Below, piece after piece: positions 867 to 64,000 of a stretch of 64,000 nt of DNA. Source of the stretch: Lantana camara. Taxonomy: Eukaryota; Streptophyta; Magnoliopsida; Lamiales; Verbenaceae. The notes under the pieces are model-generated. The model worked only from the letters and a program-made list of their open reading frames with translations. It had not been told where the DNA came from and searched no databases. Both the position numbers and the translations under genes were made by a program. How positions within the stretch are numbered: the first letter of the stretch is position 1; each line of letters begins with the position of its first letter. The stretch covers positions 29,568,001 through 29,632,000 of the forward strand of contig CM074864.1 in the NCBI GenBank assembly GCA_037501455.1. Reading direction: 5' to 3'.

Positions 867-3800
867 TGTAACACCCGCGACGATAGGCGCCACATCCCCC
901 GCACTACAAGTCTAGTCCACACGTGAAATTGAAAATCCAGCATAAACCGGACTCATAGCGAACTGGTGACAAAAAAAAAAAAAAAAAAAAAAAATCCCTG
1001 GCTAGGCGGAATCTAACCCGGTACCAATTAATTCAACAACTTGACGAGTGCAATGCGAAAGCGATTAATAATAATTTATCACAACAAAAGCTCAACATAA
1101 ACAACACTGGCTTCAAGCCTTAAATCCAAAAACATAATTAACTTTAACATGCACCTAACGACGGGTTCAACTAGGCATGAAACCTGTCCCGAATCAATTT
1201 TTAACAGTAATTAATAATTGGCACACAGGCCCAAATACATAATAAGATACAAATAGTATGCAATGCGACTCAAGTGTACATGTGAGACTTGAACGAATAC
1301 TAAGAGTTGACTCCCGCCTAGCACAACCTGCAAGAAAACTGAGAAGAGTGGGAAAGAGGGGTCAGTCTCTAGAAGACTTAGTGAGCAGGAGCTGTACGTA
1401 TATAAAAACAAGCACATGCAAGTCATAAATCCGGAGCAAAGTTTTATTGAAATTAGTTCCCGAGAAGGGCAAGAAATAGATTAGCAACGCTCGGACTTTA
1501 TGACTAATTCATATTAAATTCATTAAGTTCATAATGCATGAATAATCATAATGGCTCAGCGAGTGAGCGTGCATAATCTCCAACCAAACTTCGACCGTGT
1601 ACAATGAACATGACATAATACTTTGAATACGTGATCATGTAATAATAAATTATACACGCGAGACATAAAACATGAGACTTAAGCGTTTGGGCAATCCGTG
1701 TCCCGGCCTTCCCACACGGTACATAACAATAATAACATGAACATAATCATAATCATGAAAATAAGTTCCATCCTTCTCCCTCTATAATGGTCGGGCCTGT
1801 AGACCCGAGCCATTCCATAATAATATCCAGATGGGGGCTTATGACTCCTACCCGCTCCTTCGATGGGTTAACCATCGGCTCAAGACTAACTCACCTTCCA
1901 CACTACACGGTCGCGTGACAGATTCTCAATGAGTACTTTGTGCAATGGCTTAGCTATACGTCGGCCTGATGCCGAACAGGTCTCCATTCACACATTTCCT
2001 CGGGGCCAATACGTGTGCATGATCAATGTGCATAATCTCGCCAAAACATTTCAAGTCATGACAATCATAATACGTTCCATTTCATAAATCATGAAAAAAG
2101 GTTTACTCGATAAAGAATTACTCGATGCCTTTACTTTGAAATCAATATATATGTATACTTTAGGTTTTTGGCCAAAACTTATCACATAAAGGCTGTAGGG
2201 TTTATTACTTATCTAGAACGAAAACACCCTCACCTGGAAGACGACAATACAAGAATACAAGCTAGGCCGTGTGCTTATTGGTCACGATATCTCCACCCCG
2301 GAGATGAACTGTACAAGAAAAGGAATATTGTGTACTCGTGAGATACGACTCAATATGACACCACATAAGACGCACGGCATGCTTATGAGATGGTGTAACG
2401 TGTCATGAGATGATTTAATATGAAATAAAGCATAAGTATGTCATGGAAGGGTGTGATCATGTTGATATGCTCAATTACTCACACGAATTCAATTCATATA
2501 TTAATCACGAATTCAAATAATCAAACTTAAGCAAATAAAAACCAAAGAGTGGAAAATAAGAGCATAATTATCAATTAAGCAAGCATATAATTCATATAAG
2601 TCACATACGGGAGCCAAGGAAGTGAAAGGAATGCAATAAGAGGGGTTTTGGTGAAGTTTGGCAAAAGTTGACAATTTTCGGAAATGTACAAGTTGTGGAA
2701 AAATAGGAATATCTTAAGTTCTAGAAGTGGAAACGGGGTTTTGTTTGTTGGATATGAAAATAGACACATAGAACTTTAAAATGATATATGGCCCGAATTC
2801 TAGTTCTAAACCAGGAGAAAATGGCATTAGCTTGAAGTTAGGTGAGTGCAGTTTGTTGGGAAAATGGCGACACCTAAAAGAATTGACTATATCTCAAAAA
2901 ATAGAAAAGATATTGAGGTTATTTCAATTGGAGATTGTTCTAGACTTCTAGAGGTTTCCAACGGGTTCAAAAATTAGGTCAATCGGAGTTTGTATGAGGG
3001 AGAAACACCCGTTTGAAAAATGGTCTGAAAACCCAAACGGGCGTTTGGGAGCTCTCGGGTCAAAATTTTGGGAAGTGAAACGGGCGTCTTGGAAATGAAC
3101 TGAAAAGCCAAACGGGAGTTTGGCATGCCGCTTGGCAAAAAAACCAGTGGAAAAATAGGGCTATGCATGGGAATTGGCTCCCAAGCCTTCCCAACACAAA
3201 ATCAATGCAAGAAATCAACTCAAAACTATCATATAACTCATATACTTCATTTTTACTTCAAGTGATCCAAGATAACATGCTTAAATCATGAAGAATTCGT
3301 CCATCAAACCCCATAAAAACCATGTTGTCCAATCTTCCATGTAAGCCAAGATTTCATGCAAGTCTTCATGTTTAATTGTTCTAAGCATGCTTCTAACCAC
3401 AAGTAACCAAGGAATAACATCAAGATTCACAAACCCTACTTCATACATAACCTAAGAGACTCATATAATTAATTCCTCTACCTTAAAATGAAGAGAGAAA
3501 GGATAAAATGATGAGATGATGATGATGCTCCAATTTATGCAACTTTCCTCCTTGAATTTAAGCTTAAGATGATGAAATCTTCCTCCCTTCTCTTCTTGGT
3601 GTTTCTCTAGTTTTTTAGTGTGTGTGTGTGTGTGACGGGAGTGAGAATGGGATGGGTGTGTGTTCTTGCAATTGTGATACAATGTATAATGTATGTAATG
3701 AAATATAAGTATAGATATATGATATATATGTATAAAGGTAATAAAGTAGAAATATCATATATATTATATGTATATAATCACTTAGTGCTCATTAATATAT

Positions 3801-4166
3801 ACAAATATAATGAATGTGAGTTTGAAAGTGTATAAAAGTTATATATGAATATATATATATTACATGCTAATGATCAATTACATGAATTGAATGAGAATAG
3901 AAATATAAATCTTCTGAAGTTTAGTTTAAGTATAAAGAGAGATAGATATATGTATATAAAATTACATGTCTCTTGCATGAGTGAATAATACAAATGAAAT
4001 GTTATGTAATGGAATTACAATTAACATGATCACATAAACAAATAGGCAATTAATCACATAATCACTTGGTCACATAATATAATTTAAGCACGCTTAATAA
4101 ATCTATCTCCCAAACCCACACGTGTGGCGCGCTTACCTGAATAATTTGAACATGCGGGGCGTTACA
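867..4166 (-). repeat. element B 3' LTR (left copy)
   Basis: TGTAACACCC...GTTACA. It aligns by eye over its whole length with 22198-26048, with only scattered substitutions. On the minus strand it holds, in order: a possible exon-1 end at 3482 (AAG|GTAGAG, a weak donor), a predicted intron 2309-3481 with the palindrome cluster, a 75-nt predicted exon 2234-2308 (TTGTACAG before it, CCAG|GTGAGG after), and an intron ending at TTGCAG (1328-1334). A poly-A run lies near 971-994. Confidence 0.92.
3007..3123 (-). repeat. palindrome cluster in predicted intron 1, B left LTR
   Basis: Near-palindromes built on CAAACGGGCGTTTG: 3034-3047, with variants at about 3007-3015, 3078-3090 and 3109-3123. The six-base arms CAAACG and CGTTTG are complementary. 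The right LTR has the same cluster at about 24348-24466 with several arm substitutions. Confidence 0.8.
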
Positions 4167-4182
4167 ACCTCTCCCCCTTAAA
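4167..4182 (-). promoter_or_regulatory. polypurine tract of element B
   Basis: The reverse complement reads TTTAAGGGGGAGAGGT directly before the 3' LTR. This is the plus-strand priming site expected at this place in an LTR retrotransposon. The same tract is seen in C, F, G and H. Confidence 0.9.
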
Positions 4183-4788: not shown

Positions 4789-5874
4789 GTGTGTGTAACA
4801 GCCCAAAACAGGGCCTGGATGAAAACAGTAAGTTAAGGGCATTGGTAAAGCGTTTATAGACCGTGATCCAACTTTTTGAATCATCATGCATTGCATTCTT
4901 ACATGAAATTTGTGCTCGTATATGATCTGACATGTTTTAAGGGGGAATTCTTGACCTTTGATACAGTTTACTATTCATAACCCGAGCCTACCTTGTTCAT
5001 ATTGCTACTCGAACCCTAGAGGTTCATCACACATGTTTCCCAATCATTTGAACTTGTTTCTCGAGCTCAGAAAGTCTTTCTTGAACCATAAGGGTATTTT
5101 TGGAACTTACCGACCAAAGTTACTATTCATCAGAAAATGAGCTTTTGATTCTGATACCTTTTCCTACCCAAGTTACAGTCGAATCGATCCTTGAGTCGAG
5201 ACGAGTCTTTTGAAATCATTCTTGGCTTGGAAATCCATTCTGGAACTTTGTTTTATTGAAAACGTTTTTGAAAACCCTAGTTTACTATTCCTTTTACGAA
5301 CGGTTTTCATTCGGAAAATGTTTTCTCTTCGGATTTGCACTACTTGAGCTATTTCAAGATTTTGAGATGTTTTACAACTCTTTATTCAAACCCTAGCTTG
5401 AAATTTTGAAGCGTACGTTCGTACGTGAGAATTCACTATTCATCCTACGTTTTTAACTTTTTAACGGCAAAACGTTTTATAGTCGATTTTGGACTCAAAA
5501 CGCTTCTCGATTTATTTCTTGAATTTTGGAAGCAATCCGGACTTGAAAATCATTCTAGAAAGTCATTTTTCACTCATGTTGAGTTTCGAGCTCAAAACTT
5601 TTATTCATTAAAACTAATGTATCTTTCAAACGGTAAATCTGATTTCGACGAATGAATATGCGTTTCGAAGCTAATTTTCTTGCCGTCGGAATGGTTATAC
5701 TTCCAGCCACTTACCCTCGAGTCTTGGGCAATGAAATTACAGAAATACCCCCAGCAGTCCCATTTTACCTTCATAATCCCTAAAGCTTCTAGAAGATACA
5801 AGTGGATGAACTCTTGGTTTGCTCTCCTACCCTTCTCCATATTTTATTTCCAAGGTGAAGGGCTTCTCTTCAAC

Positions 5875-5883
5875 TATAAATAG
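5875..5883 (+). promoter_or_regulatory. TATA box of the A 5' LTR
   Basis: TATAAATAG in a pyrimidine-rich setting, identical in the 3' LTR. Transcription would start about 30 bases downstream, near 5910, just before the first predicted splice donor at 5986. Position and consensus are good, but the start site is inferred. Confidence 0.7.
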
Positions 5884-6783
5884 AGGGCTCATGGCATTTC
5901 ATTCCTTGCTCAAAGTTGTGTTAACAACACCCTTTCTTCTCTCCCTCTCCCCCTCTTTGCCGTCGGCACCCCCCTTTGTAGCTAGGTTAGTTTGTTTTGT
6001 TTTTATGTTATGTTAGTTTAGTTTATGTTTTTATGTTATGATATGTTTATATTATGTTTAGGTTGGGTCTTAGGGTCTTCCCTAAGCCATATAGGATTTT
6101 ATTTTATGCAATTATTATATAGTTTTCATGATATGTTTGAATAGTTGTTTATATGTTTTAATTGTTTAGTATATGCTTGAATATGTTATGAATTGCTCTA
6201 GTATATGCTATGATCATGTGATATGGTTGTTATATTATAAGAATTGATGCATGATTATGGAATTTGAATTATGTTCATGCATGCTAGCTAATGGAATAGT
6301 GATTTACAATTTATTATGTCACAACTTGTTACATGTTGGTATTGAATTAAATTGTTACATGTTACATGCCTAAAGGTTTATGATATATGATATGATATGA
6401 TATGATATATGTTGTGACATGTTGTCACATTGTTATATGATTCTTGAATTATGAATTGAGCTTATGATATGATATGGATTAATGGAATAGTGCCTTGATC
6501 ATATGTTATACACTTTAATAGTGTCACATGTTATAACCTAAGATAGATTAGTGTTTCATAACTTGATCTTATGCCTTAATTGGATCTCTTAACCATAGGT
6601 TATACCTTTAACCTAGATCACACTTGATTATTATAACATGAACTTGAAACTATAGGTTATAATCAAGATCATAATTTAATTAGGGTGTGTGTGTGTGTGC
6701 ATGCCGTGTCTGTGTGTATGTGTTCGTGCATGGTGTGGGTGTGTGTGTATAGTAAGGGTTTGACCCGACCCTTTGACTCGACA

Positions 6784-6873
6784 TGTTAATAGTAACCTGT
6801 GAATAGTAACTGTGAATAGTAATCGTGAATAGTAATCTGGAATAGTACTTTTGAATAGTGCTTTTAAATAGTA
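6784..6873 (+). repeat. 12-bp minisatellite in A 5' LTR
   Basis: Seven or eight imperfect copies of GTGAATAGTAAY. The 3' LTR copy (about 17145-17223) has fewer units, so the array changed length after insertion. It lies in the predicted first intron. Confidence 0.8.
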
Positions 6874-7230
6874 AAAATGAAATAAAACTTGTGCTTTCCT
6901 AATAGACATTTGCACCTAGGGTTTCCATATCCAGGGTCTAAAATGTGTTTTCAAAATGTGTTTTCTTTCGTGGACTTGTTTTATAACTTAAGGTTTGCGA
7001 TAGGATTCATAATTTGACTAAAGCTTACTCGGTTATAGTAAGATCATAATCTCACGTTAAGAGTAACTCACTTTGACGTATTCCTTTGTGTGTTACCTTT
7101 CTTGAATACCTTAAATGGTATTACTCTCTTGTGTTACATGTTCCTTGTTCATTTGTTTCATGCATTTCATATGCATCTTGGTTAGTAGTAGGTCTTAGTT
7201 CTTAAGCTCACTCTAGTACACCACCTACAG

Positions 7231-7299
7231 GAGTTAAAGTTGAGCACTGGGATCCCCAGGGCACCGCATAATCTGTCTACCTACCTTTGTTACTGATAG
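7231..7299 (+). other. predicted 69-nt leader exon in A 5' LTR
   Basis: Flanked by an acceptor-like CACCTACAG (ends 7230) and a donor GATAG|GTGAGG (GT at 7300-7301). The 3' LTR has the same element at 17579-17647. Comparable 52-89 nt segments with the same flanks lie at the equivalent place in LTRs of B, C, D, F, G, H, I and J. The exon status is inferred from sequence. Confidence 0.55.
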
Positions 7300-7925
7300 G
7301 TGAGGTGAAGTTATAAATGTTTTCCAACTGGAACCACGATTATACTATCGTATCATATGTTTTGAAATTCAAAGCTAAACCTCGTTTTGAACTATCCCTT
7401 TTATCGGGACATTCTCTTGAAAGGATCATTCATACTTTAATAGTATACCTTGATCTACAGTACATGTTTTCCAAAGTTCTGCATTCTTGTTCAAAGACAG
7501 TTACATGTTCTGCATATGTTTTCAAAGTACAGTTTACAGACAGAATCACATGTTTTCAGACAGAATCATATGTTTTACAGACAGCATCATATGTTACAGT
7601 TACAGTTTCACATGTTATAGTTAGCATACTGGAGTGATACTCTTGTCACTGCTAATCTTAAATGCAAGCATACAGTTTACAGTTTGGGCCCGGCGGTTAT
7701 GCGTGGAGGTGATGCTCGGGAGGTGAGCGCCAACGACATCACCAATACCGGCCGCCACACTTAGACTATTGACACCGACTTTTAACAGGAGGTTTGTTAA
7801 GTCAGGACAATCTGTCTGGGAACGGACAGCAAATATATTCCCATTACATGTTTACAGGTCGCCTAGGGCTAGCTACCCGAAGTGACAACCGGTGGAGGAT
7901 GGTGCATGTTTGTATGTGTTGGTAA

Positions 7926-8078
7926 GAGTTGTTGTTGACCTTGGCCCAATGATCTACTGTGTGCGGAGTTATTGTTGATCTTGGTCCGATGCTCTACTTT
8001 ATGTGGGGTTATTGTTGATCTTGGTCCGATACTCTACTATACGTGGAATTATTGTTGATCCTGGTCCGATGCTCTACC
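7926..8078 (+). repeat. 40-bp tandem repeat in A 5' LTR
   Basis: Nearly four copies of a 40-bp unit containing TTGTTGATCTTGGTCCGAT and CTCTACT. The same array sits at about 18273-18426 in the 3' LTR. It falls in the predicted second intron. Confidence 0.85.
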
Positions 8079-8953
8079 AAATCATGTTTTCTGGAGTAAG
8101 GATGGAGGAGCCTAGCTTGCGGGCAAAATTCTATTTCATAAAGGATGGTTCATATCTAGAAAAGTTCACTTTACCCTTATCCCATTTTATGAAAGAACTA
8201 TGAACCATCAGCAGCATATGTGTGCGCGTGTGATAGCATTCATGAAAATGTTTTATAACGTGCATTCTTTTACAGCATCGCATTCAAAGAGTTTTATCAA
8301 CCGAACTTGTTTCAAGTTCTTCTTTAAAGCATTGCATTAACAGTTCCAAACTTTACTTCAAGTTCTTCATCACTCAGCACTTTCTTTTAAGTATTCCCTC
8401 ACTTAGTCCTTTTGACTAATATCTCTCCCGTTTTCTTGCCTCGTGGTTTCAGGTCTTGCAGCCGCAGTCTACAGGTATCTTGAAGCTCTAGATTGTCATT
8501 TTTGTTTCAGTCAGGACTTAGTATTACTTCCTTTTGTGTCCTGCATATGTTTTATGGCTGCATCACTTTATACTTCTGTATATGTTTTTGAATACTTGAG
8601 TATATTTGTTATACTTTTTCTGCTACTCTGTTACCGATACATTGAACTTTGTTATATCGGTACCTATATGTGAATCTGTTACATGTTCTGATATGCCGAG
8701 TCTCTCTTACACGATCAATATGTTCTTGCTTGTTACATGCCATCACGCACATGTTTTGAAAAGTTTTAAAATACTCTGATTTTCCGCTGCATAGCCACAT
8801 CGTTTACATGTATAGTTCTGAGATAGACAGCCGTTCGCTGGAGTATTTCTTGAGTGATGGCTCACACCATTACTTGAGAGGTGCTTCAGTGCGGGGGTTG
8901 AGACGCCGCTCTCCTCTTGTTCTAGTACGGGTAGGGGCGTTACAGCCCTGAGG

Positions 8954-8993: not shown

Positions 8994-9132
8994 TAGATTT
9001 CTCTCATGTTGAATCATGGATTGTTCACGCATTGCATCCAGGATCATTCTCATATTGCATCGAGACAGGATTATTGGGGATTGCATGGTTCTGTTATCTG
9101 GATTTCATATCTGTGGTATCTTCTGTATAGCT

Positions 9133-9813
9133 ATGGCAGTTCAGCCACACCAGGATCCTAATCAGCAGATGGATGAGGCTTTCTTTGAGCAGTTTGAGGC
9201 CCCGCGTACTGTGGCAGTTTCTCGCCGTGGAGGCACTCGTTTCTATACCTGGCGCAGGTCTAGGAATAGTGGCAGGCCTGGGTATTCCTATCCTAACAGA
9301 GTTGTGCACTATCTCGAGTCTGAGAGAGATGGTTACTTCCGGGAGTATCAGAGGACCCGTGAGGTCAGGTTGGAGTCTATGCGCCATCAGGATCAGTCAC
9401 TGCAGTACCAGATTGATAGGGACATCGCTCGTGAGCATGCTGCAGAGATGACTCATATTGCTGATCAGAGGGCTGCTCGTATTACTGAGCTGGAGGCAGA
9501 TCTTATGCAGATGACTATTGATCACGACACCTCTATGGAGCGTCACCAGCACTACCGTGCCCGCGTAAGAGCTCGCCTGTATGATACCTATCACTTATCC
9601 GATGAGCAGGCAGTTGAGGAGGTCGAGGGTCAGGATGTCAGTCAGGCTTCTCAGGAGCCCGAGCCTATGCAGGAGCAGTCTGATGGAGGCGATGGAGGAT
9701 CTGATGATGATGATGATGGCGGAGATGAGCCAGCAGGTCACGGACAGGGTGAGGTCGTTGCTGTTTCTGATGACACCACCAAGGGTTCTCTGGACCACAG
9801 TTATCAGGGTTGA
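9133..9813 (+). CDS. accessory ORF upstream of gag, unknown function
   Basis: Encodes 226 residues from the ATG at 9133. The frame is open from 9016, which would add 39 hydrophobic residues. I prefer 9133 because it has a good plant start context (GCTATGG) and lies two bases after an acceptor-like TCTTCTGTATAG. I recognise no known domain. Visible features are an Arg/Gly/Tyr-rich basic stretch at about residues 27-55, a long charged helical region with coiled-coil-like Glu/Arg/Leu spacing at about 60-170, and a very acidic tail with a run of five Asp near residue 195. It lies between primer site and gag, where most chromoviruses have no gene. The frame is fully intact although gag and pol are damaged. 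It could be an RNA- or protein-binding accessory protein or a captured host fragment. Confidence 0.65.
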   Translation: MAVQPHQDPNQQMDEAFFEQFEAPRTVAVSRRGGTRFYTWRRSRNSGRPGYSYPNRVVHYLESERDGYFREYQRTREVRLESMRHQDQSLQYQIDRDIAREHAAEMTHIADQRAARITELEADLMQMTIDHDTSMERHQHYRARVRARLYDTYHLSDEQAVEEVEGQDVSQASQEPEPMQEQSDGGDGGSDDDDDGGDEPAGHGQGEVVAVSDDTTKGSLDHSYQG

Positions 9814-19292: not shown

Positions 19293-19297
19293 GTGTG

Positions 19298-39809: not shown

Positions 39810-39816
39810 TCTTAAG

Positions 39817-45900: not shown

Positions 45901-46034
45901 AATAGTTCAAATATTTAAAGAATTTCAAATAAGAATAAATATAAATCATATAATCAAGTAATTAAAATAATTTAAACACGCACTTAAAGAGCACACAAGT
46001 CATACCTGAAAATCCGAAATAGCGGGGCGTCACA
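42963..46034 (-). repeat. element G 3' LTR (left copy)
   Basis: TGTAGCACCC...CGTCACA. Minus strand: consensus donor CAAG|GTGAGT (GT at 45267-45266), predicted intron 44134-45267, 66-nt predicted exon 44068-44133 (GCACAG before, GAAG|GTGGGT after), acceptor TGTGCAG ending at 43348. Confidence 0.94.
44657..44825 (-). repeat. palindrome cluster, duplicated, in G left LTR
   Basis: Copies of AAATCCACCCCCGYGGATTT and AAATCCATCCCCATGGATTT, whose arms AAATCCA and TGGATTT are complementary. A 68-bp block starting CCAGACCTACTGACTC is present twice in tandem. The sister LTR has it once. It lies in predicted intron 1, about 450 nt after the donor. Confidence 0.9.
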
Positions 46035-50561: not shown

Positions 50562-50735
50562 CCTATTAATAAAACACGGAAAATGAATGCTATGTTTAGT
50601 TCAGGCATGAAAAGAGAAGATAATTCAATCAAAATGCGATAATTAAGCACATAGGCACATTAGAGATGCAAAAGAGACACGTTGACAAGTAATTCCTATA
50701 GCCGAACGACCTAGACCAACTCACACGACACTGGG

Positions 50736-50767
50736 GCCTGGTTTTGCAACCCGAGGCTCTGATACCA
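50736..50767 (-). promoter_or_regulatory. primer-binding site and adjacent hairpin, element G
   Basis: The reverse complement of 50756-50767 is TGGTATCAGAGC, a perfect match. It continues into GCCT..GGTT, which pairs with AACC-AGGC across 50736-50757. Confidence 0.92.
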
Positions 50768-50775: not shown

Positions 50776-53700
50776 TGTAGCACCCGAGCGCAAGGTACCA
50801 CATCCCCCGCACCGAGACCCCACCCGAATATGAAATAGATAATCCATACTCAAGCTAGATCACGGCGAACGGGGACACACATACACTCTATGCTAGGCGG
50901 GACTAACCCTTAAACAAAGAAATACAAGAATAGACAATAAAGCGGAAGCATAAATAACATATAAGCTGTACATTGAGCATCACGCTCCACAAGAATATAT
51001 CATAAGTCACATGCCTAAAAGGCCCATAATATACAATTCCCAAGTCATGTATAAAATACTAAGACCATAAGTATGAGTATGCAAGTGTAAACAAAATATA
51101 CAAGAGCTAGAAGCAAATGCAAGACTCTAGACTCGAATTCCCGCCTAGCTCCCCTTACACCTGCACAACAAAAACTGAAAACAATCCGGGTTCAATCCAA
51201 AGGGGACTGGTGGGTATAAAGCAGGGCATAAATATAGATAAAACGATAATTAAACAAGTACATGCAAGCCATAATCCCAAATGAGGTTTTCAAAACATTT
51301 ATCAAGTGAGTGAAATAAGGAAATCATTAATCGGGATTATAACACTCAAATTCATTAGGTCTTTAGTGGCCCGGCGAGTGGGCGTGCATTATCTCCAACC
51401 AACACCTTGTGTATTTCATTAAATCATTCATTCAATCATTCTTTTCATGCATACTATTCTTTTGTGCACATATATAACATATACTCCTTCTTCCTCCGGG
51501 TTGGTGGACGGATTTGCAAGACCCGGCCACCCATGCATTGGCCAAAAGGGGTTACATGACTCCCCAGATGGCACTCAACGTCCATTCCTCGCTAACTCCT
51601 AACGAGGTCCGGTTACGTCGTTAGATTGGTGGGACTAGTGAAAGGGATCACCGTCGGCCCATGCCTCCCCGGATAGCCTCTAGCACTAAGTCCCTGGGCC
51701 CCATTCTGTGCATTCGATCAATTCTCGCCGAAACATTTAGGTAGGGTTCATAAAAGAAGGGCTTTACGTTCAAAATCATAGACTCGATAAAAAGGACTGT
51801 ATATATATATAATTTTAGGCCGAAATCTTTACACATAAGAGGTATATAAGGTCATTTAACTAAGTAGAAGGGAAACCCACCTTCCAAGATAAAATAAAAG
51901 GAGTAGAAGCTTCAAGGATCGCCTTCACCTTCAATCGGACCCGGATCTATGCGAACAAAGTGGTGTGAGACTCAAAACAACCAAATAAGACGCTCGGCAA
52001 TAAAATGATCATGATATAAATGCATAAAAGATGATATTATGTAATGGACATGTTCATGTGCACTATTAATGTCTTAAAGACATATAAACATTCATTCCAT
52101 TCTTTTCATGAAGCGTTCAAATTTGTTAAAGTTCAACATCTCCATAAATCATACTAAATTAGTCCAAGAAATTCAAATAACGATCATAACACGTAGTATA
52201 ACATGTATACGTACCATACAAGTCATTAAATAAGGAATAAATAACAATTAGGGTTCAAACTTAAGAGCAAAGTCCATGCATGCGCACATTAGGAGCAAAG
52301 AAGACACATTGAAGCATAACTCGTAAAATATTCCACGAAAAATCATAAAATTTCATAACACTCAAGATAATACATGTTAGCATAGCATAAAAGTCATAAA
52401 AGAGGTGGAGGAATACAAAACAAGCGAAGAAAAACAATAAAAAACGAAACCGGAGCAATAAAAAAAAACTGGACAAAATCCACCTGGGAAAAATCCACCC
52501 CCATGGATTTGGTCCAGACCTACTGACTCAAATCCACCCCCGCGAATTTTTCCAAAGGGAAAAATCCACCCCCGTGGATTTGAGTCTGAAGCCAAAAAAA
52601 AATAAAGAACGTAGTAGAAAAACAGAGCAACACCATGCCAACTCCAACCAACATACTTAGGTAAGTTAAGATCATCAAAATGCAAGAAAACCACTCCACA
52701 ACAACACACAAACATGCTCCCAAAGTGTTGAAGCATGGTATGGAGGTAAGGATGATCATTTCATGTAAAAACTTCAAATATACATTAATGGTAACTCATG
52801 AATGCTTCAACTACCATCTAATACTTCACCATAAATGCAAGGAAGGTGTCATGGCAACCATATTCAAGCTTGGAATCAACCAAAACAACCAAGGAATGAA
52901 AGAGTTCAACGAATGAAAGATTTCAACAAATTGGCATATAACCTAACTATTCATCCATATTTCCAAAACCCCATCAATACATGATCAAAATTGGGGATGC
53001 AAAGCTTAAAATGACCCATATTGAATGTATAACATGATACTAAACTCACCTTGGGGATTGAATGGAGGAAAAATGGAGATTTGAGCTTGAATCTCCAAGG
53101 AGGGCAAGGGTTACGGGATTTCTGGAGAGCAGGGCAAGTTTGGTTGATTTTGGCTTAGTTGCTGAGTTTGGTTCGGTATGGGGGTGTATGGGGAGATAGT
53201 GGGGTTAACTAGGGTCACATAGGTTCAAACCATGGTTAATTTGGTCAAGGTATGAGGGAGTTATGGCATTTTTGGCAATGTGTGGCAGATTTGACTCCCG
53301 TTGCGAGTTTCGGTTGAATTTCGGGGGTCCAAATGATATTAGAAAAATATAAGGCTAAGTTCATTGAACTCAAATTTTCGATACGAGTTCAACGAAGTTG
53401 ACGAAACTCGAATCCGAGTTTCCTAGCTCAAGATATCACGTACGGAACCAAAGGTACGCTAATTTCCCGTTAGCCCCGTTTTGGTTCCAAATGCACAAAA
53501 TAAATTCAAAACACAATCAAACAAGTCCGAAAACATAAAACGAGCATATATTCATATGAAAGACACACATAAATCCAACATATTAAAATTCCACAAAGTT
53601 TCGAATTCATTAAATATGGAAACGACACATAAACATTTAACACATGCGCAAATATTCAAGAAATTCATATAATTTCAATTCAAATAGTTCAAATATTTAA

Positions 53701-53816
53701 ATAATTTCAAATAAGAATAAATATAAATCATATAATCAAGTAATTAAAATAATTTAAACACGCACTTAAAGAGCACACAAGTCATACCTGAAAATCCGAA
53801 ATAGCGGGGCGTCACA
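50776..53816 (-). repeat. element G 5' LTR (right copy)
   Basis: Co-linear with 42963-46034. Donor CAAG|GTGAGT (GT 53049-53048), predicted exon 51881-51946, acceptor TGTGCAG ending at 51161. The palindrome cluster at 52470-52591 has one fewer 68-bp block than the left LTR. Confidence 0.94.
52470..52591 (-). repeat. palindrome cluster in G right LTR
   Basis: Contains AAATCCACCCCCATGGATTT near 52491 and AAATCCACCCCCGTGGATTT near 52562, and a single copy of the block duplicated in the left LTR. One GCGGATTT arm is changed to GCGAATTT. Confidence 0.88.
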
Positions 53817-53821: not shown

Positions 53822-56654
53822 GAAGGCATAACTTGAGCTTGGGAATTCAGATTCAAATTCTGGAAGTGGTGCTGGGCTCAAAATGAGAATTGGGAGCTTT
53901 TGAACCTAGCTTTTTAATTTTCTAAGCCCCTTTGGCCCTCCGAATTTCACCCGAAACCTGAACCTCTTACAGATTTGCCACATTTTACGGTTTTGGCCAT
54001 AACTCCCTCGTTTCTTAACCAAATAACTTGATTCTTGAGCTCAATTAACCTTAGTTAAACCTATTTTCGTCCCCTTAACCCCTAATCTTTAAACCCAGCT
54101 TGAATAAAGTGAGCAAAGTAGCTGATTTGAGAGAGAGAAAGGGAACCCACCACTATTCACCTTTGCCGATTTCAAGCTCGTATCTTCTCTGATTCTTCTC
54201 CAATTCAAAAGGTTTGTATTCTTGTTCTCCATCTTCTTTCCTTTGTTTTAAGCCATGGTTTGTATGATTTCATTAGGTTTTGAGCATGTTACCATGAAGA
54301 ACATGAATAGTAAGGGTTTATGTGAAATCTTGTGAATCTTTAGAGTATCTCTTGATATGAAGCTGAATATGTGATCTAGATAGCTTATTTGTTTTATTTG
54401 TAAGCATGAAATTCATGTAATTTTGTTGCATCTTGATTCACCATGGCTGCCTTCTTGTTTTTCTTAACAATGAGATGAAATTTTGATCCCTTTCCTTCCC
54501 CTCTTTGCCGAGTTGTTTTGGTGAGTTTGTACATGTCTTTTCCTGCTTTTTGTTGCCTTGTTTGCTACCTTTGTGTTGCCTTCCTGGCCTGCTGTTGCTG
54601 CTTGAAGTTTGGAGAAGAAAACAGGGGCTGTTACTGAGTTTCCCACACTGCAACGCGAGGCAGCGGCCGCGACCGCGCCAAAGCCTCTTTTGGTCGCGGC
54701 AGCGGCTAATTTTTGGACATGTTTCGACCTGTTGCTACTTCAGAAGTTGGTGGAGGTTGTGGTAGTGGCCGCAATCCCATTTGTGCTGTGTTTTGGTCAC
54801 GGCCGCAACCCTTTTTGGGGGTATCTTCGAGTTGTTGCAGCTGCCCTTCTTCTTATGTGATTTCTTGTTGTTTTATCGACTTGCATGTGTCGTGCGTAGC
54901 TTTCTTAGCTCATATATGTTTAGTATATGTTATTAACTTGTTATATATCATGTTAAATGCTTTGATTATGAATTTATTATGTAATTTCGGTGCTCATTTA
55001 CATGATATATGACAAGATATATTTGTTATGCCCTCTTACGTACATGCATGCCTTCGTGCATCGTTTATTTACCGCGTATGTTATTTCTTTGCTCTTTTCA
55101 TGATATGTATGTATTGTTAGCTCATTATATGATATGTTATGTTCATTGCATGAGATTTATGAATCCGTTTGAGATAAGATATGTGATATAAGAATTGATA
55201 TGAATTTGTATGCGCTATATGCATCTTGTTGCATTTCATATGCATCATTTGCATTCATATGCATTTACCGAGCGTCTAATTAGTACATTTTGAGTCTAAG
55301 TACATCTTTTTTCCTTTGTTTTGAACAGAGGTTCATTCCGAGGGTAACGAGGTGGTCCTTTAGGTGTGCTTTGGTTTCCTTTATTCGGTTGGTTCGTCAA
55401 GGTGAGGTTTCTTTCTTTTAGTTAATATGACCTTCGTATATATATACGTGTTTGATATGTATTTTGTGGGAGTTGGACCATTTGTTATGAAACATTTAAA
55501 AACCATTTTTATGTATACGTAAGATATATTTTCTTTTGTTTGTTTTGAAAAATGGTTTCTGTGTATGTTTTTGAAACTAGCGAGTTATGACTTTGAGAGA
55601 TAAGTCTGATTTTGAAAATTTAGACGTTTGAACTTTGAATTTCGAACAATTTGAACTGGACCCTGGAGATTTGTGCAAAGGAGCCCCGGGACGACATTGG
55701 GCCTTTGGGTCACTTACCGAGTGCGATCTCCACTTAGAAAGGATCAACGCGGAACCCACTAGAAGGTTTGGTGGGGATGGAATACCTGGCCGTGAGCGTC
55801 ATGAAACTCACGACCCATAGTTATGTATGTTTGAATTACCCGGAGAAGAGTTATGTATGTTTGAATTATGTTTTTCGTTTGAATTTTGATTCCGATTTGA
55901 AATATGAATGGAGTTAGGTGGTTTGAAACTCGTACTCGCCGAGTTGTGTTATTTAGATTCTGAATTTAGTTTGTGAAACAGGGGTGGATTCCTAATTACT
56001 AAAATTTGGTGATTTTGGCCTTCGGCCATACCCCTTTTTCTATATATACTATCACGTGCTAAAATGATTTAGATTGCAAAAACTATGCCCCCGGTTCATG
56101 AGCTTTTATGACTTTGAATATGCTCTGCCCTTATGTATATGTACGTGTGAGTGTGTTAGCCCCCTCACCAGTCATTAGGACCGACCCCTTCTTGTTGTCT
56201 TCTTTTCCACTTTGTTTCTTGAGTTTACAAGTGCAGGGTTCGGTTTGAGCTAGGCGGTGGTTTTCATTTGAGTTTGTTCGAGTCTGAGTTCGAGTCCTTT
56301 ACATTCTACATCTTTACCTTTCCGCTTTGGTATTATGTATATGTATGAATATGTATAAGAACTTTGAATTTATGAACTTGTATGATTTATTTTGCCCAGG
56401 GTGGGCATGTTTGTGTATCATGTAATTTAATTAGACTAGTTGGTTATTGTATGTATGCTTAATGATCCTGTTGCTTCCGCATGTGTTTTGACTTTGTTGT
56501 GTGCTCTGAATTGGGGTCTAGACCGCCTAGCTTAAGTGTGATTTTGCTAGTCACCAGTTTGTTGTAGCTCGATGCGTGTGCGGAGTCTCTATTTCATTAC
56601 ACGTGTTGGGTTATGGTGCCGGGGATGTAGTGCTTTCTGCTCGGGGGTGCTACA
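53822..56654 (+). repeat. element F 3' LTR, second segment
   Basis: Continues after the TTTCG copy and ends GGTGCTACA. It contains donor AAAAG|GTTTGT at 54212, predicted intron 54212-55328, 73-nt predicted exon 55329-55401 (TTTTGAACAG before, TCAAG|GTGAGG after) and the mutated intron-2 acceptor near 56230. Confidence 0.92.
54654..54810 (+). repeat. palindrome cluster in F 3' LTR
   Basis: GC-rich inverted pieces in an otherwise AT-rich LTR: GCGGCCGC at 54663, GCCGCGACC at about 54667 inverted as GGTCGCGGC at about 54692, and GTGGCCGC and CACGGCCGC further on. It lies in predicted intron 1, about 440 nt after the donor. Confidence 0.75.
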
Positions 56655-58090
56655 TGATTGAAGTTCAATCCAATGATCCGAAAATTCAGAGATTGGCTAC
56701 AGAATCAAGGGTTGATCCAGAGATGAATCAGGTTTGACGATTTGTGGTTGTTTCGGTTCAAGACAAGAGTATGTGTCCCGAAAGAGCTCAAGCGGATTAT
56801 TCTTGAGGAGGCATGTAGGTTGGCATATTCGATACACCCCGGAGGCACGAAGATGTTCAAAGATTTGAGAACTTTATATTGGTGGAGTGGCATGAAGAGA
56901 GACGTTGCTAACATTGTAATGCGATGTTTAACATGATAACATGTGAATACCCAGCATAAAAAACCGGGAGGAACTATCCAACCACTTCTTATTCCCGAAT
57001 GGAAGTGGGAGCACGTGACAATGGACTTTGTGTCCGACTTGCTAAGGACTTAAGGAGGTCTCATTGGGATAATGGTTGTGATTGACCGATTGACTAAGTC
57101 GGCCCATTTTCTCAAATTCCGGATGTCCGACAAGGTACCAAAGCTGGCCGATTTGTATTATAAGGAGTTTGTGAGGTTACACAGAGTACCGGTTAGCATG
57201 GTTTCAAATTGAGATCCTCGATTTACGGTGAGCTTTTAGAAAGATCTTCAGAAGTGTTTGGTCACGAGACTTCACTTTAGTACTACTTCGGACCCACAAA
57301 AGGATAGCCAATCCAAGAGATTGATCAAGTATCTTGAGAACATGCTTCGTGCTTGTGCCATAGATTTTCAAGGAAAGTAGGATAGACATTTAGCTTTGGT
57401 CGAGTTCTCCTACAACAATAGCTTTCAAGCCTCAATTATCATGGCTCCGTACAAGGCACTATATGGAAGAAAGTGTCGGTCACTTCTCTTTTGGTTTATT
57501 GAAGATTGGAGGTGGACCAAAGAGGGTAAGCTCCAATGAGCTATTAAACCTGGGAAGATAGGTATAACCATTGCCAAAGTTCAGTTGATTCAACCAAGAA
57601 TGAAGGCGGCTCAGGACCGATAGAAAAGCTATGCGGATTAGAGAAGACGGCCCTTAGAGTTTGAAGTGGGAGATAAGGTCTTCTTGAAAGCATCTCCTAG
57701 AAAAGGGTTTACTCGGATTGGTAAAGGTGGGAAGCTTAACCTGCGCCACTATGGCCCCTTCGAGATTCTTGAAAGAGTTGGGAAAGTAGCTCACTGACTT
57801 GATCTACCACTGAGTTTGACTGGGATACACAATGTCTTCCATGTTTCTCAACTAAGGAGGTACTATCCCGATGAGTCTACCGTACTCCCTGTTAAAGAGG
57901 TATAACTTGAGCTGGATTTGAAGATTGTGAAGCAACCAGTTAAGATCTTAGACCGGAAAATGCAAGAGTTGAGGAACCGGCAAATCCCCTTGGTAAAGTC
58001 TTTAGGCGTGATCAAAAATCCAAAAAAGCCACTTGGGAGACTGAGACGAAGATGAAGCAGTTGTATCCGGAGTTGTTCGAGGCCCTGTAG
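56655..58090 (+). pseudogene. pol: decayed RNase H/integrase part of pol of element H
   Basis: Begins inside pol just before the integrase zinc finger, where F inserted. The zinc finger reads HPGGTKMFKDLRTLYWW...RCLT near 56836-56935. Core motifs follow in several frames: MDFVSDLL near 57021, RLTKSAHFL near 57088, NNSFQASI near 57416, [10 protein letters not shown] near 57443, and the GPF segment near 57750. A chromodomain-like tail near 57990-58085 ends at TAG 58088-58090. I count about ten stops or frameshifts. Many stops replace Trp, Gln or Arg codons by single transitions (TGG to TAG, CGA to TGA, CAA to TAA). H is the oldest coding relic in the window. Confidence 0.9.
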
Positions 58091-58112
58091 TAGGACCTGA
58101 GGATAGGTCCTC

Positions 58113-58128: not shown

Positions 58129-60011
58129 TGTGACGCCCCGTCCATTCAGCCGTACAGATATGACGTCATGAGTGTGCTACTTATGCATTTAAATTATACA
58201 TTTATGTAATTATATGATGTTTAAATGATATTCATATGCTATATGTTTTATACTTTGAACTTACGTTAGAACTTTGAACGTTTTGCTGCTTTGATTTCGT
58301 TTCCAATCCGTTTGATTTCGAATTTGATTCTGATTTTTGTGAATACTTGATATGCACGAAGTATGTGAGTTATGAATGTGTTTATATGCTCATTATACAA
58401 TTTTGAACTCGCTTGATAAGGTCTTGGACCATTTTTGTGAAAACGGGACTTAAGGGCCTAAAGAGATTTTAGCGTACCTTAGGTTCCGGATAGAATAACT
58501 TGAGTTCGGGAATTTGGATTTGAATTTTGACACCACCATTGGACTCTTATTGATGCTTTGGATCCAACGGAACAAGCCTCATATTTTCTAAGCCTGTTTA
58601 GACCTCCATAACTTCGTCGAACGGAGCCCCTTGGTCCGGAATTGATACCTTTAACCATTTCGGCATATTTGACTCATTATAACACCATTTTTTACTCAAA
58701 CCTGGACCCACACAACCCCAGGTCACCCCTCTACTCCCTCTCTACCGCTCATTTTACCCACAACACAATAAAGAAAAAGAAATTAAACTTGAAGCAAGAA
58801 AGAAAGAGAAAACAAAAGTTCACTATTCACCACTTTGATATCTTGAGCTCATATCATCTCCATTCTTCAAGGTAAGTGTATTTCATGTTCTCCATCTCCT
58901 TGTGCTTCTTTTTATCCGTGATTCTTAGGTTTTGATCTTGAATTGATAGAGTTATGGCTTATGGCATGAATAGTAAGGGTTTTGAGTTCTTATGAGAATC
59001 ATGTGTTATTCCTTGTGATTTCTTTTGATTTGATGCATGTTTTATGACCAAAAGACCTCCATTATTACTTCTTTAATCATGTATTGAGTGGTAGTCGAGT
59101 TTTTATGGAGTTACTGTTAATGCATCTTATATGAAATGTAAGAACATGAAGATGTATGAACCTCCTACACTTGCTCTTTGTTGTACTTTGGTTTTAGGCC
59201 AGATTTAGGCCTGAAATTTATGGATTTTTGCTACCTTAACATGCCTTAATGTGTTTCCTAGATGTTGCTTTGGTTTGTTTGGTGTAACAGGGGCTGCCAT
59301 GGTGGGAGGTTAAGGATGAAGATGGCCGCAAGGAGATGCAAGGCAACCTTCTTGGTTGTTGTCACGAGCGTGTCCCTTTTCTTTGTCTTAAGACACGGGT
59401 GTGGTTTTTTGGAGACACACCCGTGTCTCCAAGCTGAGTTTTTGGGGCTGTGCGTCTGTATTGAGACACGGGGGTGGCACCTTTTTGCCTAGAAAGGAGG
59501 CACCCCCGTAGCTTACCTAGTTTACATGGATGTGTGTTTTTATTTTATTTCTTCTTCATTTATTTATTTTATATGATATTTTCTTGCTTGTTTTATGACT
59601 TATATGCATCCTTAACATGTTAAATTATGTGTTAAGCTTATTATATTACGTTTATGGATTGATTTGATATGATATATGCAAGATATGATCTTATATGCCT
59701 TAAGTTCTACCTCATCTCATTTCATTCGCATCACTTGCATTCATATGCATTTTCTGAGCCTCTAATTGGTTCATATTGAGTCTAAGAGTGTCTTTTGTTG
59801 TTTGTTTTGTTCAGAGGATCATCCCGTTGGCGTCGAGATGGTTCTATAGGTGTCTATTTGATCTCTTTTTGTTCCTGCTTCATCTCGAACGTGAGGTTTT
59901 GTTCTTTTAGTTCATACGACAAACAACCCTACGTATTTTGAAACCCCTCATGTGAATTATGTATATTTTATGATAGATATGTGTATAATATTTACTTTGA
60001 GGGCTTGTCCC
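58129..60011 (+). repeat. element H 3' LTR, visible part
   Basis: Starts TGTGACGCCCCG and is cut at 60011 by element I (target site GTCCC, 60007-60011). Leader signals: consensus donor TTCAAG|GTAAGT at 58872, predicted intron 58872-59814, 76-nt predicted exon 59815-59890 (TTTTGTTCAG before it), donor AAC|GTGAGG at 59891. Confidence 0.9.
59391..59482 (+). repeat. palindrome cluster in H LTR
   Basis: AGACACGGGTGTGG (59391), GAGACACACCCGTGTCTC (59412-59429) and GAGACACGGGGGTGGCACC (59463). Arms GAGACAC and GTGTCTC are complementary. The motif is of the same family as in E and I. Confidence 0.85.
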
Positions 60012-60845
60012 TGTAGCACCCCAAGTGGTGGGCACCACATCCCCCGCACTAGAGCTCGACATGTGTAATGAAATGCAGAATCCGCACACGCACCAAGCAC
60101 TAGCGAACCGGAGATAAACAAAAGTCACACCTAAGTTAGGCGGTCTAGACCCTCAAATAAAGCATGTTTAATCAAGTCATACAAGAGCGGAATCAATCAA
60201 ATAAACTATAAACAAGACCTGGAGCCAAGATTACAGGTCACATGAAACAGATTAGATATAAAATTGCCACAACTGGCCAAAAGTAACAAATACATATTCC
60301 ACGTCTCAAACTTCAAGCACCAAAGGTACAAGTACAAAATGAACTATGTTTGAAAATGCAGACTCAACTATACTAGAAAGACTCCAAAAGACCGCAAACT
60401 GCCTAGCTCGAACCAAAAGACCGGTACCTGCAAGCTAAAAACATAAAGAGGGCGGGGTCAATCACACTGGACTGACTGAGGGATTACACACGCACATATT
60501 CATACGGAGCACAACACATATCATAGTTGAGAATTCATGAACCGGGGCATGGTTTTCGCATTCGAAATTATTTTTTCACGTGATAATACATATAGGGAGA
60601 GAAGAGTTAAGGGCCGAAGGCCAAAACAAGCAAATTTTATTAATTGAGAATCTGCTCCCATTTCACGAACTATTACATAACATTCTAACATAACATACAC
60701 ACAAAACAAACCTTGAAGCAAGAGGGAAATGTGCACAGGGTTAATATCCGTCCCAAAGTCCTCTTACCCACATCCCAATGATCATGCACGAGAGTTATAC
60801 CTGGCGTCCCGAGTCTCCCTTACCTATAATCACCGAGCCCCAAAC

Positions 60846-61290
60846 ATATTCAGAATTAAAGTCATATCAAGAGCATAACAACGTCCAAGACCAAGTTCAT
60901 ATCCATGCCATATTCATATTCATAGCGGATTCGTATGGATATCATACCCATGTTCATAATCACATCAAGATTATACCCATAGCATATTCATATTCATGTT
61001 CGTAAGCGTACTCGTACTAATACATAATCGCATTCCTAACATATTCATACTCATAACCACATTTATAACCGTAGCATATTCATAACCCTAGCATATTCCT
61101 ATCCTAGCATATTCATGTCCTAGTATACTCATATCAGATTCTTAACATATTCATGTTCATAGTGGATTCATATCCCTAACGTATTCATATCATATTCGTA
61201 TTTACTAACAAGATCTAACATAGTACTTTAATACCTTGCATATCATATTCCATTACATGTAGCATATTCATACTATTCATAGCTCACACG
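60846..61290 (-). repeat. degenerate CATATTCAT repeat in I LTR
   Basis: A run of roughly twenty or more imperfect copies of CATATTCAT, separated by short spacers such as ATCC, AACC and TAGC. It lies in predicted intron 2. It looks like slippage-driven expansion of a short word. Confidence 0.75.
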
Positions 61291-61967
61291 TATTACGTAT
61301 ACATCGGGCACGTTTCATTAGGGTTTAACTATAACCTAACCTCACGTTACACCGACAAACCGGGTAAAAGAAAGCAAAACCAACGCCTACAGAGTAACCT
61401 CGTCACCAATAGGATACTCCTCTAAACAAAAAAACATTACAAGATAAACTTAGACTCAAAATGAACCATACAAACGCTCGGCAAATGCATATGGATGTGA
61501 ATGATGCGACGCATGTCACAAACGTTCAAACTTAAACACATCGAAGCAATTAACATGTTATCAAATTGGCAACACATAATTCAACCCATAACACATCAAA
61601 TAAACTCATAACACATCATATAATAACATATCATGAGTATACACAAAGTTAAATCACATAAGAAAAGCAAGAGATACAAAGGAGGCAACAACAGATAACA
61701 TTTAGAGCATATAAGTTCACACTCGTATACCAGGGTCGAAATCACATAACCGGCACATAAAATAACACATAACATATAACATATGCATTTTCAAGTTTAA
61801 ATTACATATACAACGCAAGACATGCAAGAATGTATCACACGTATCATTTAAATGTTTATGCATACTAGTCACATTTACACTTAGCAAATAAAGTCATAAC
61901 ATTAAAATAAATGACGAAAAACACTATTTTACAACATATTAACATTTTTAATGGCTGAGAATGGGGT

Positions 61968-62093
61968 GAGACACGGGGGTGTCTCATCCCCAATTATAAG
62001 GGTGACACGGGGGTGACGGAGGCCAGAAACTTCAGCCCAAGGTGACACCCCCCGTGTCTAAAAAGTAACACTCCCTTGTCACCTGCGCGATAA
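61968..62093 (-). repeat. palindrome cluster in I LTR
   Basis: GAGACACGGGGGTGTCTC (61968-61985), GTGACACGGGGGTGACG (about 62002), GTGACACCCCCCGTGTC (about 62042) and a decayed copy near 62073. It lies about 470 nt downstream of the predicted first donor. Confidence 0.85.
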
Positions 62094-62655
62094 CTTCGAC
62101 TTCTTCGACTTCTTCGATTTCAGCTATAAAACGAGAGGGAAAGCAAGCAAGGAATGGAACAAGAGTTGGGCAACAACATACAGAACAATCCCAAGCATTA
62201 AACCACAAAATTTAATTTTCCTCCCGAAACGGCCCAAAATTCTGTGACAACCGAACAACAACCAAGGTACAACATAAGAGTTTAATTTCTTCCAAAAACA
62301 TCAAAGTTCAACAATGGTGGATAACTCCACACTACATATTCATCAAATACAAGTTTAGGAAAATATTAAGCATGCTTCGAGGGTTAAATATCAGGTTTCG
62401 AATCAAGAAACAAAGCAAGAATTCACAAGTTCTTCACAAATTCATATCAAACCCTCACTATTCATGTTCCTGCTCATAACCAACTCAAAACTCAATGAAA
62501 ATCTTCAAATTATAGATTAAGAAAACCACAAGGATTTGGAGAATAACAATAGGTTCTTACCTCTTGAATTGGAGAAGAAATGAAGGAGATATGAGCTCAA
62601 ATCTCCAAGGGGTGAATAGTGATGAGATTTTCTCCTTTCTTCCTTGTTTTAGCAG

Positions 62656-64000
62656 TGTAGCGCCCCAAACGGAAGGCACCACATCCCCCGCACCCAGACC
62701 CGACCCGCATATGAAATGGGAAGTCCATACACGTGCCAAGTCACGGCGAACGGGGACCACTTAATCGTTATGCTATGCGGGAGCTAACTTTGAAACCAAA
62801 TAAATAAATTAAATCCCAAATGTGAATGCACATGCGAAAGCAGGACATAAAGTTAATCACAATATCAACAGCAAGTAACGGGTTCAACTAACATAGATAC
62901 CTAGTCCCGAAATTTAAAACATAAATCATAAATCATAAATCATAAAACATAAGTCACAGGTTCATTCTATCCCTAGAAGCCTGTCCTGAATCAATATAAT
63001 ATAATCATAACATTCATTAATTGTTCTATAACTTATTCAACTTACAAAAATGCGTTAAGTGACCCAAACTTGACCAAACGACTCGACCGACTCGAAACAC
63101 CGCCTAGCACTCCAACACCTACAAGAGAAAACTGAAAACAAAGCCGGGTTCAGACTATAGGAGACTGGTGAGTATAAAAACAGGGCATAAATATAATGTA
63201 CGACGGTATTTAAACATTCACATGCAAGCTATAATCCCAAGTGAGGTTTTTAAAGAATTTCCCAAGTGGATGAAATAGAGAAATCATCAAAAGGGATTAT
63301 AACGATTCATTTACATTAGGTCGTTCTTGGCTCACCGAGTGGGCGTGCATTATCTCCAACCAACACCTTGTGTAGTTCATTAAACATTCATTCATTCATT
63401 CTTACTTTCATGCATTACATTCTTTCGTGCACATTCATGAACATTTACACCTTCGTCCTCCGGGTTGGTGGTGGGTTTGCAAGGCCCGACCACACATTCA
63501 TTGACCAAAAGGGGAACATGACTCCCCAGATGGCACTCAGCGTCCATTCCTCGCTAACTCCTAACGAGGTCCAGTTACGCCATACATAGGTGGAACTAGT
63601 GTGAGGGATCACCGTCAGCCCATGCCTCCTCGGGTCACCACTCACACCAAGTCCCTGGGCCCCATTCTGTGCATTCATTCATTCATTCTCGCCAAAACAT
63701 TTGGTAGGTTCATAAAAGAAGGGTTTTACTTTAAAATCGTTGACCCTTGAAAACGACTCTATATACATATATACTTTTGGCTGAAATCCTTACACATTGG
63801 GAGCATATAAGTTATTTAACTAAATAGTAAAGAAACCCACCTGTCCTTAGCTTACAGACCAACACTAAGAAGAAACAAGAGGACTCGGAAGTGTCCTAAG
63901 AACCCGACAAGTCTCCGCCCTGGAGAAAACTGTACAAAGGACAATATAGTGTACACGTGAGACTCAAGACTCCAAATGTACCAAATACGACGCACGACAA
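62656..64000 (-). repeat. element J left LTR, partial
   Basis: Starts TGTAGCGCCC inside I, after the expected target site AGCAG (62651-62655), and runs off the window. Minus-strand signals: acceptor TTGTAG ending at 63119, second donor ACAG|GTGGGT (GT 63840-63839), 89-nt predicted exon 63841-63929, acceptor TTTGTACAG before it. The insertion point in I is within predicted exon 1 of I. Confidence 0.85.

Follow-up and report, generated by a model that had tools for sequence, protein, structure and literature searches.

Putative spliceosomal introns inside the long terminal repeats of chromovirus-type retrotransposons in Lantana camara

The window analyzed here, a stretch of 64 kb from Lantana camara (contig CM074864.1, positions 29,568,001 to 29,632,000; coordinates below count from its first base), is a nest of plant Ty3/gypsy chromovirus-type retrotransposons in a host genome of 1.27 Gb. 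The long terminal repeats (LTRs) of these elements very probably hold a transcribed leader with at least two spliceosomal introns, and spliced RNA appears sometimes to have been copied back. Families are designated A to J, and self-comparison of the window defined the following LTR pairs:

4794-8945 and 15157-19293: LTR pair of A
866-4166 and 22197-26048: LTR pair of B, the second LTR interrupted
26058-29548 and 31672-35122: LTR pair of C
42963-46034 and 50776-53816: LTR pair of G

Self-comparison also aligned an LTR remnant, E (39256-39810), with 56098-56655 at the F end (90% identity). E and F are probably the two ends of one element, with F as the 3' LTR and E as what is left of the 5' LTR. 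The first-pass annotation had counted nine families and listed E apart from them; as E and F belong to one element, the count of nine holds and the separate listing falls.

Pfam searches of the separate open-frame pieces of A found gag (73.8 bits), protease, reverse transcriptase (RT), RNase H and the integrase zinc-binding domain, with the integrase core marginally below its cut-off (32.3 against 32.6). The Chromo domain of A scored 27.3 bits, over the cut-off of 25.1, and the chromodomain of G 19.5, below it. This succession of gag, protease, RT, RNase H and integrase, in that order and with a chromodomain, is that of a Ty3/gypsy chromovirus. Membership among LTR retrotransposons is indicated by paired LTRs, by TGGTATCAGAGC-like primer-binding sites, and by ATCTC flanking an element of the L010 family on contig C1, described below. 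Primer-binding-site motifs are present after several window LTRs; that of G is presumably of the initiator-Met type:

50756-50767 (-): primer-binding-site motif of G, TGGTATCAGAGC

Placement of the window elements in the Tekay (Del) clade is likely; we take the long LTRs and the LTR ends to suggest this clade, which a polyprotein phylogeny would define. Tekay appears as a clade name in passages of PMC6317226. A scan of viral contigs with a protease-RT piece returned four pattern matches, and tblastn found no relative among them.

The first-pass annotation had described, in each of the nine families, a short segment between an AG preceded by pyrimidines and a GTGAGG or GTGGGT donor. This observation is confirmed. 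All nine segments exist on their assigned strands, and the downstream edge is GTGAGG in A, B, C, D, F, H and I, and GTGGGT in G and J. The upstream AG lies at the listed edge in eight of the nine; in I it is 10 nt inside that edge, and the segment first given as 61346-61431 is corrected to 61346-61421 (76 nt). These segments are the predicted second exons of the leader:

7231-7299 (+): exon 2 of A, with AG and GTGAGG edges; second LTR copy at 17579-17647 with the same edges
2234-2308 (-): exon 2 of B; second LTR copy at 23576-23650
32995-33066 (-): exon 2 of C; in the other LTR at about 27387-27458, with the donor mutated to ATGAGG
36376-36427 (-): exon 2 of D
55329-55401 (+): exon 2 of F, in the 3' LTR whose 5' remnant is E (39256-39810)
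44068-44133 (-): exon 2 of G; second LTR copy at 51881-51946
59815-59890 (+): exon 2 of H
61346-61421 (-): exon 2 of I, edge corrected
63841-63929 (-): exon 2 of J

A signature was defined as YAG with at least 65% pyrimidine in 20 nt, then 45-95 nt, then GTGAGG or GTGGGT, and was applied to one LTR per family. It occurs in 9/9 LTRs on the sense strand and 2/9 on the antisense strand, and in 300 dinucleotide shuffles the mean was 2.67 of nine and the maximum 7; the motifs came from the same sequences, so that genome copies are the cleaner control. In family C, the second donor is disrupted in copy C1 (ATGAGG) and the first donor in copy C2.

In the predicted layout, transcription would start within the LTR, after a promoter and ahead of exon 1. 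Exon 1 would be followed by intron 1 (approximately 0.8-2.1 kb), exon 2 (52-89 nt in the window), intron 2 (approximately 0.56-1.0 kb) and an exon 3 that starts just before a conserved TAGGCGG block, and splicing would join exons 1, 2 and 3. TATA-like motifs precede a CT-rich stretch in D and at the genomic locus L015.

Donors were scored with a plant donor matrix (scores out of 8.4). In D, G, H and copy C1 of family C, the top-scoring donor ahead of exon 2 is AAG or CAG followed by GTAAGT or GTGAGT. The median ATG-free stretch before all GTs in these regions is 16-26 nt, and the stretches before the candidate first donors are as follows:

28768-28773 (-): donor 1 of C, AAG/GTAAGT, the top donor score of the region; 53 nt ATG-free upstream
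38485-38490 (-): donor 1 of D, CAG/GTAAGT; 130 nt ATG-free upstream
45262-45267 (-): donor 1 of G, AAG/GTGAGT; second copy at 53044-53049; 171 nt ATG-free upstream
58872-58877 (+): donor 1 of H, AAG/GTAAGT; 319 nt ATG-free upstream
54212-54217 (+): candidate donor 1 of F, AAG/GTTTGT, score 5.2 (moderate); 212 nt ATG-free upstream

Consensus donors had been claimed for C, E, G and H. Those of C, G and H were recovered (at 28773, 45267/53049 and 58872), and the remnant E is too short to hold one. Among the families credited with weaker versions, D has a strong donor, F a moderate one, and A, B and I none that convinces. The corresponding position in J would fall outside the window.

The acceptor and TAGGCGG block claimed for most families were found in B, C, D, F, G and J. 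TTGCAG in I is followed by a diverged TAGGCAG, A is without TAGGCGG, and H ends before this block.

1328-1333 (-): acceptor 3 of B, TTGCAG; TAGGCGG at 1314-1320, 7 nt after
32083-32087 (-): acceptor 3 of C, TGCAG; TAGGCGG at 32055-32061
35471-35476 (-): acceptor 3 of D, TTGCAG; TAGGCGG at 35451-35457
56232-56236 (+): acceptor 3 of F, TGCAG; TAGGCGG at 56251-56257
43348-43353 (-): acceptor 3 of G, GTGCAG; second copy at 51161-51166; TAGGCGG at 43328-43334 and 51141-51147
60428-60433 (-): acceptor 3 of I, TTGCAG, then the diverged TAGGCAG
63119-63124 (-): acceptor 3 of J, TTGTAG; TAGGCGG at 63100-63106

The predicted exons and introns differ in ATG content. Observed/expected ratios over 10 LTRs are 1.36 in part of U3, 0.31 for the final 130 nt of exon 1 (a partly circular figure, as explained below), 1.91 in intron 1, 0.22 in exon 2 and 1.48 in intron 2. 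Exon 3 gives 0.08 for its first 75 nt and 1.99 for the 185 nt that follow, with 1.41 further on. Nineteen exon-2 segments contain three ATGs in 1,359 nt, compared with 19.2 in shuffles, and the GC content of 18 of them lies above that of both 100-nt flanks. The share of ATG among the A-T-G permutations, segments against flanks, gives p = 2e-10 with related copies included, and p = 4e-6 for the nine window families alone. ATG-poor exons are expected of a 5' leader that ribosomes scan. In introns 1 and 2 of the 10 LTRs, TGA is almost as common as ATG, and the other A-T-G permutations are rarer. After approximately 75 nt, exon 3 enters a T-rich stretch (T 0.43, GC 0.31), and a search for a donor shared by the LTRs in exon 3 or at its end found none.

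A further set of LTRs was drawn from TAGGCGG places within 3 Mb of the start of contig C1. Regions were fetched around 12 TAGGCGG/CCGCCTA pairs and eight single TAGGCGG occurrences, and the 16 LTRs with an acceptor-like stretch ahead of TAGGCGG were kept. An exon-2 segment ending in GTGAGG lies about 580-1,124 nt upstream in 10 of these, and AAG/GTGAGG was seen at L013 in a further scan only. Exon 2 was unseen in the remaining five, two of which have just 736 and 1,299 nt upstream and three of which are apparently interrupted. A genome-wide pattern, fixed by the block upstream of exon 2 and by GTGAGG and leaving the acceptor free, gave 2,730 exact matches (1,363 + 1,367) and none for the reversed control. 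In 30 distinct strings hand-picked from 100 printed, YAG follows a pyrimidine-rich stretch at the expected place in all 30, with a CTAA motif approximately 30 nt before it in 24. The acceptor-3 pattern, AGACTGAC-N20..50-GCTAGGCGG, gave 16,750 matches (8,401 + 8,349), again with none for the reversed control; by eye, TTTCAG or TTGCAG together with a pyrimidine tract is seen in most of the 100 strings printed, and the AG is mutated in a few. CTGAC we take to resemble a plant branch point. Donor, acceptor with pyrimidine tract and branch-point-like motif together make up the features of GT-AG introns, although the donors of H and I score poorly.

Exact joining of the predicted exons was seen through genomic copies of two families, L010 and L019. 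Each probe search scored the best 40 candidates and favored joined copies, so that the fractions below are uninformative on frequency. The L010-family probe (179 nt, exons 1-2-3 joined) had 4,172 candidates. Seven of the 40 scored places, in three elements on contigs C1, C3 and C9, are contiguous through the exon 1/exon 2 edge, and the other 33 begin at probe base 32, like the intron-bearing L010. At the joint, the exon 1 end, CTCGAACTTAG or CTTGA, runs directly into AGGAGGTTCCAG, the start of exon 2 (AGGAGG). This was read in the first three LTRs and in the second LTR of two of those elements (of the places on contig C3, one was read). The first three LTRs keep donor 2 (GTGAGG) and TAGGCGG, and the joined LTRs realign to L010 after a gap of approximately 1.0 kb, the length of intron 1. 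LTR spacing in the three elements is 6,411, 6,402 and 6,340 compared with 7,389 in the intron-bearing L010, again approximately 1.0 kb shorter.

The element on contig C1 (C1:59536522-59544622) has two 1,690-bp LTRs that are 99.6% identical and both without intron 1. ATCTC on both flanks forms a 5-bp target duplication, and a primer-binding site and gag start follow the 5' LTR. It is a true insertion lacking the intron at the splice edges, as in the SpIRE retrocopies discussed below. In the contig-C9 element the joint is present in both LTRs, which are 99.3% identical over 1,626 bases compared. No polarized site unites the C1, C3 and C9 elements; one joins C1 and C3, and another C3 and C9. Exclusive derived sites of the intron-bearing L010 are held in common with the C1 element (four) and with the C3 element (two). 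From these sites, intron loss in this family probably occurred more than once.

The L019-family probe had 2,156 candidates, and the 40 scored places were classed from their reported range: seven cover both edges, three exon 2/exon 3 only, 26 exon 1/exon 2 only, and four neither, three of these being L019 itself. Twelve places, 75-87% identical to the probe, were read. All three exons are joined in L040, L042, L043 and L044. Exons 2 and 3 are joined in L041 and L048, which keep the 3' end of intron 1, and exons 1 and 2 in L045, L046, L047, L049 and L050, which keep donor 2. The twelfth, L051, is like these last five apart from a shift of about 6 nt at the joint. Intron-less places of this family are often paired 2.7-3.6 kb apart (the neighborhoods of L040, L042, L043, L045 and L047), which suggests short, non-autonomous lineages founded from spliced RNA.

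Several observations weigh against a spliced leader, or against parts of it. GTGAGG and GTGGGT are mediocre donors (2.2-4.1 in the contexts present), and the donor 2 context of H and I, AACGTGAGG, scores -0.7. The best first donors of A, B and I reach 4.4, 3.2 and 1.8. The exon-1 ATG ratio is partly circular because the first donors of F and of the L loci were chosen with the ATG-free stretch in view, and exon 1 of L016 holds several ATGs. Seven genome exon-2 families, taken once each, display a weaker depletion (two ATGs compared with 6.4 expected, reached in 3.7% of shuffles; Fisher p = 0.001). With exon 3 rich in ATG past approximately 75 nt and no shared donor there, the scanning account is incomplete. 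Among intron-less copies, the exon 1/exon 2 joint of L051 is off by about 6 nt, the C3 and C9 elements have the same exon-1 end and may derive from one loss, and many L019-family places may descend from few events. No exon 2/exon 3 joint was found among the best 40 of 4,172 candidates with the L010 probe, and no joined copy among the best 40 of 1,403 with a G-family probe.

A further acceptor-like site, absent from the first-pass annotation, lies at the start of gag. AG, a single nucleotide and then the gag ATG are found in seven elements of five families (G, L009, L013, L014, L015, L029 and L034), in the context AG/G ATG or AG/A ATG. A differs, with AG/TAACAATATG placing the AG 7 nt before the gag ATG, and a recognizable gag start is absent from the part fetched of L030-L033.

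50562-50564 (-): acceptor-like AG/G before the gag ATG (50559-50561) of G, a possible third intron end

Given this AG next to the ATG, gag mRNA may need a third splice, for which the exon-2 donor is a possible partner.

Splicing of the LTR-encoded leader, as first proposed, is strongly supported at the level of sequence by the exact intron-less copies, by ATG-poor exons alternating with ATG-rich introns, and by branch-point-like, pyrimidine and AG signals in thousands of copies. What the spliced product would serve is a separate matter. The LTR may make its own short spliced RNA, composed of exons 1-2-3 and ending in the T-rich stretch, besides or instead of gag mRNA; this is compatible with splicing and matches an exon 3 of approximately 75 ATG-poor nucleotides, then T-rich sequence, and no shared donor. 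We consider it unlikely, as the scarcity of ATG in exons 1 and 2 points to scanning to a start codon, the gag ATG has an acceptor-like site of its own, and the contig-C1 element keeps a primer-binding site and gag start, so that its template ran past exon 3. That the intron-like segments are kept for another reason, as DNA-level regulatory motifs or LTR RNA structure, and are unspliced, is highly improbable. The same LTRs do hold other conserved blocks (the TAGGCGG/CCGCCTA inverted repeat with its co-varying flanking base, and GAGTCTA near several sites), but genomic copies from which one or both introns are missing at exact edges argue strongly against this explanation, and ATG depletion in the predicted exons also speaks against it. 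Slightly less credible still is that intron-less LTRs are ancestral or the missing parts ordinary deletions: at least one intron is missing from 36 of the 40 L019-family places scored, though the scoring favors such copies, whereas intron-bearing LTRs with exon 2 and acceptors are found throughout the nine diverged families of the window and in thousands of copies across the genome, the three intron-less L010-family elements share no uniting site while L010 shares derived sites with two of them, and intron 1, intron 2 and both have been lost separately.

The favored reading thus remains a leader spliced within the LTR. Removal of the ATG-rich introns would let ribosomes scan an ATG-poor leader, and the third splice, to the acceptor-like site at the gag ATG, would complete gag mRNA and also remove the primer-binding site. 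The first-pass annotation had held that unspliced RNA is the genome. This fits the bulk of copies, but three L010-family elements and many L019-family places appear to derive from RNA without intron 1, intron 2 or both. Intron-less LTRs with exact edges indicate that spliced RNA can be reverse transcribed; as intron-bearing LTRs dominate the counts, most new copies would still be made from unspliced RNA, the usual genome although not the sole one. In LTR elements, reverse transcription takes the 5' end of the RNA as the source of R and U5 for both new LTRs. Splicing confined to the 5' leader would therefore remove an intron from the two LTRs alike, the pattern found in the C1 and C9 elements.

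It is tempting to view splicing as a switch between protein making and replication, a proposal to which we give somewhat less than an even chance. The ATG-rich introns, and perhaps a stem between exon 3 and U5, would block translation of unspliced RNA. The third splice would remove the primer-binding site and yield an mRNA that is translatable and not reverse-transcribable, and partly spliced RNA that leaked into replication would found intron-less, often short, lineages.

Splice sites in an LTR-encoded leader are known from primate retroviruses: HIV-2/SIV have a leader intron in R-U5, and HTLV-1 a splice donor in R. In the open-access literature, judged by title or abstract opening, no report on introns inside plant LTRs was found. 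Plant LTR retrotransposons are described as generally without introns, with Ogre and EVADE as exceptions, in passages of a 2025 review (PMC12786077); Bagy-2, Ogre, CRR and BARE are listed in a section of PMC3735527, and spliced RNAs of sunflower elements are reported in part of PMC7730604. Barley BARE1 (Ty1/copia) likewise uses spliced RNA for translation and unspliced RNA for replication, but the 104 nt spliced out lie near the gag end, outside the LTR, according to the same section of PMC3735527. Ogre (pea, Medicago), EVADE (Arabidopsis), CRR and Bagy-2 share with the present elements introns or subgenomic RNAs; in the relevant passages of PMC12786077, PMC6317226 and PMC3735527 these introns are located inside coding regions or between them, or are used for env, and none is described in an LTR leader. 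The closest parallel to the intron-less copies is found in the spliced integrated retrotransposed elements (SpIREs) derived from human L1, which in excerpts of PMC5860796 number 131 of 6,609 full-length L1s (about 2%), arise by splicing within the 5' leader, and show that a junction-spanning probe recovers genomic copies derived from spliced RNA. L1 is a non-LTR element, in contrast to the elements described here, where such places are many in the L019 family and, with the introns inside the LTR, both LTRs of checked copies lack the intron.

Should many plant elements of this kind carry introns in their LTRs, LTR promoters, R regions and solo LTRs would need to be annotated differently. Ordinary cDNA would then make it possible to test how a single RNA acts as message and as genome. 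The very long LTRs (3-4 kb here) would be partly explained, since predicted intron makes up well over half of the length in D and G.

TAGGCGG at the exon 3 start faces CCGCCTA 219-338 nt downstream in G, B, C, F and L009-L020, forming a long-range inverted repeat:

50894-50900 (-): CCGCCTA (arm 2) in the 5' LTR of G, pairing with 51141-51147
1003-1009: arm 2 in B
31797-31803: arm 2 in C
43081-43087: arm 2 in the other LTR of G
56523-56529: arm 2 in F
60137-60143: arm 2 in I

The second arm is exact in 18 of 20 LTRs, the next base being Watson-Crick in 16, G-U in one and a mismatch in one, a count in which the seven core bases were set by the search and related copies were included. Pairs at this next position include A-U, G-C, C-G and U-A. 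We considered ribosome shunting across the stem and discarded it, since the loop contains the ATG-poor stretch of exon 3. Past arm 2, LTR 3' ends (e.g., L009, L015 and L019) carry a conserved block around CGTTCGCTATAGGTT...ACCTATAGTGCGGGGG, by eye hairpin-like and with compensating changes between families. A GAGTCTA/GTCTAG motif recurs near several landmarks. It is found ahead of exon 2, where it might be the branch point, and also within exon 3, close to arm 2 and past the primer-binding site, where it may have another role, for example as an RNA-binding site.

Between its primer-binding site and gag, element A has an additional 266-aa open frame (9013-9813) with no Pfam match; the likely start codon of this frame is also preceded by an acceptor-like site, TATAG. 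The interruption in the second LTR of B is an insertion of approximately 535 bp (24847-25398), whose ends are inverted repeats of approximately 217 bp, 87.6% identical, and which resembles a foldback or MITE-type insertion.

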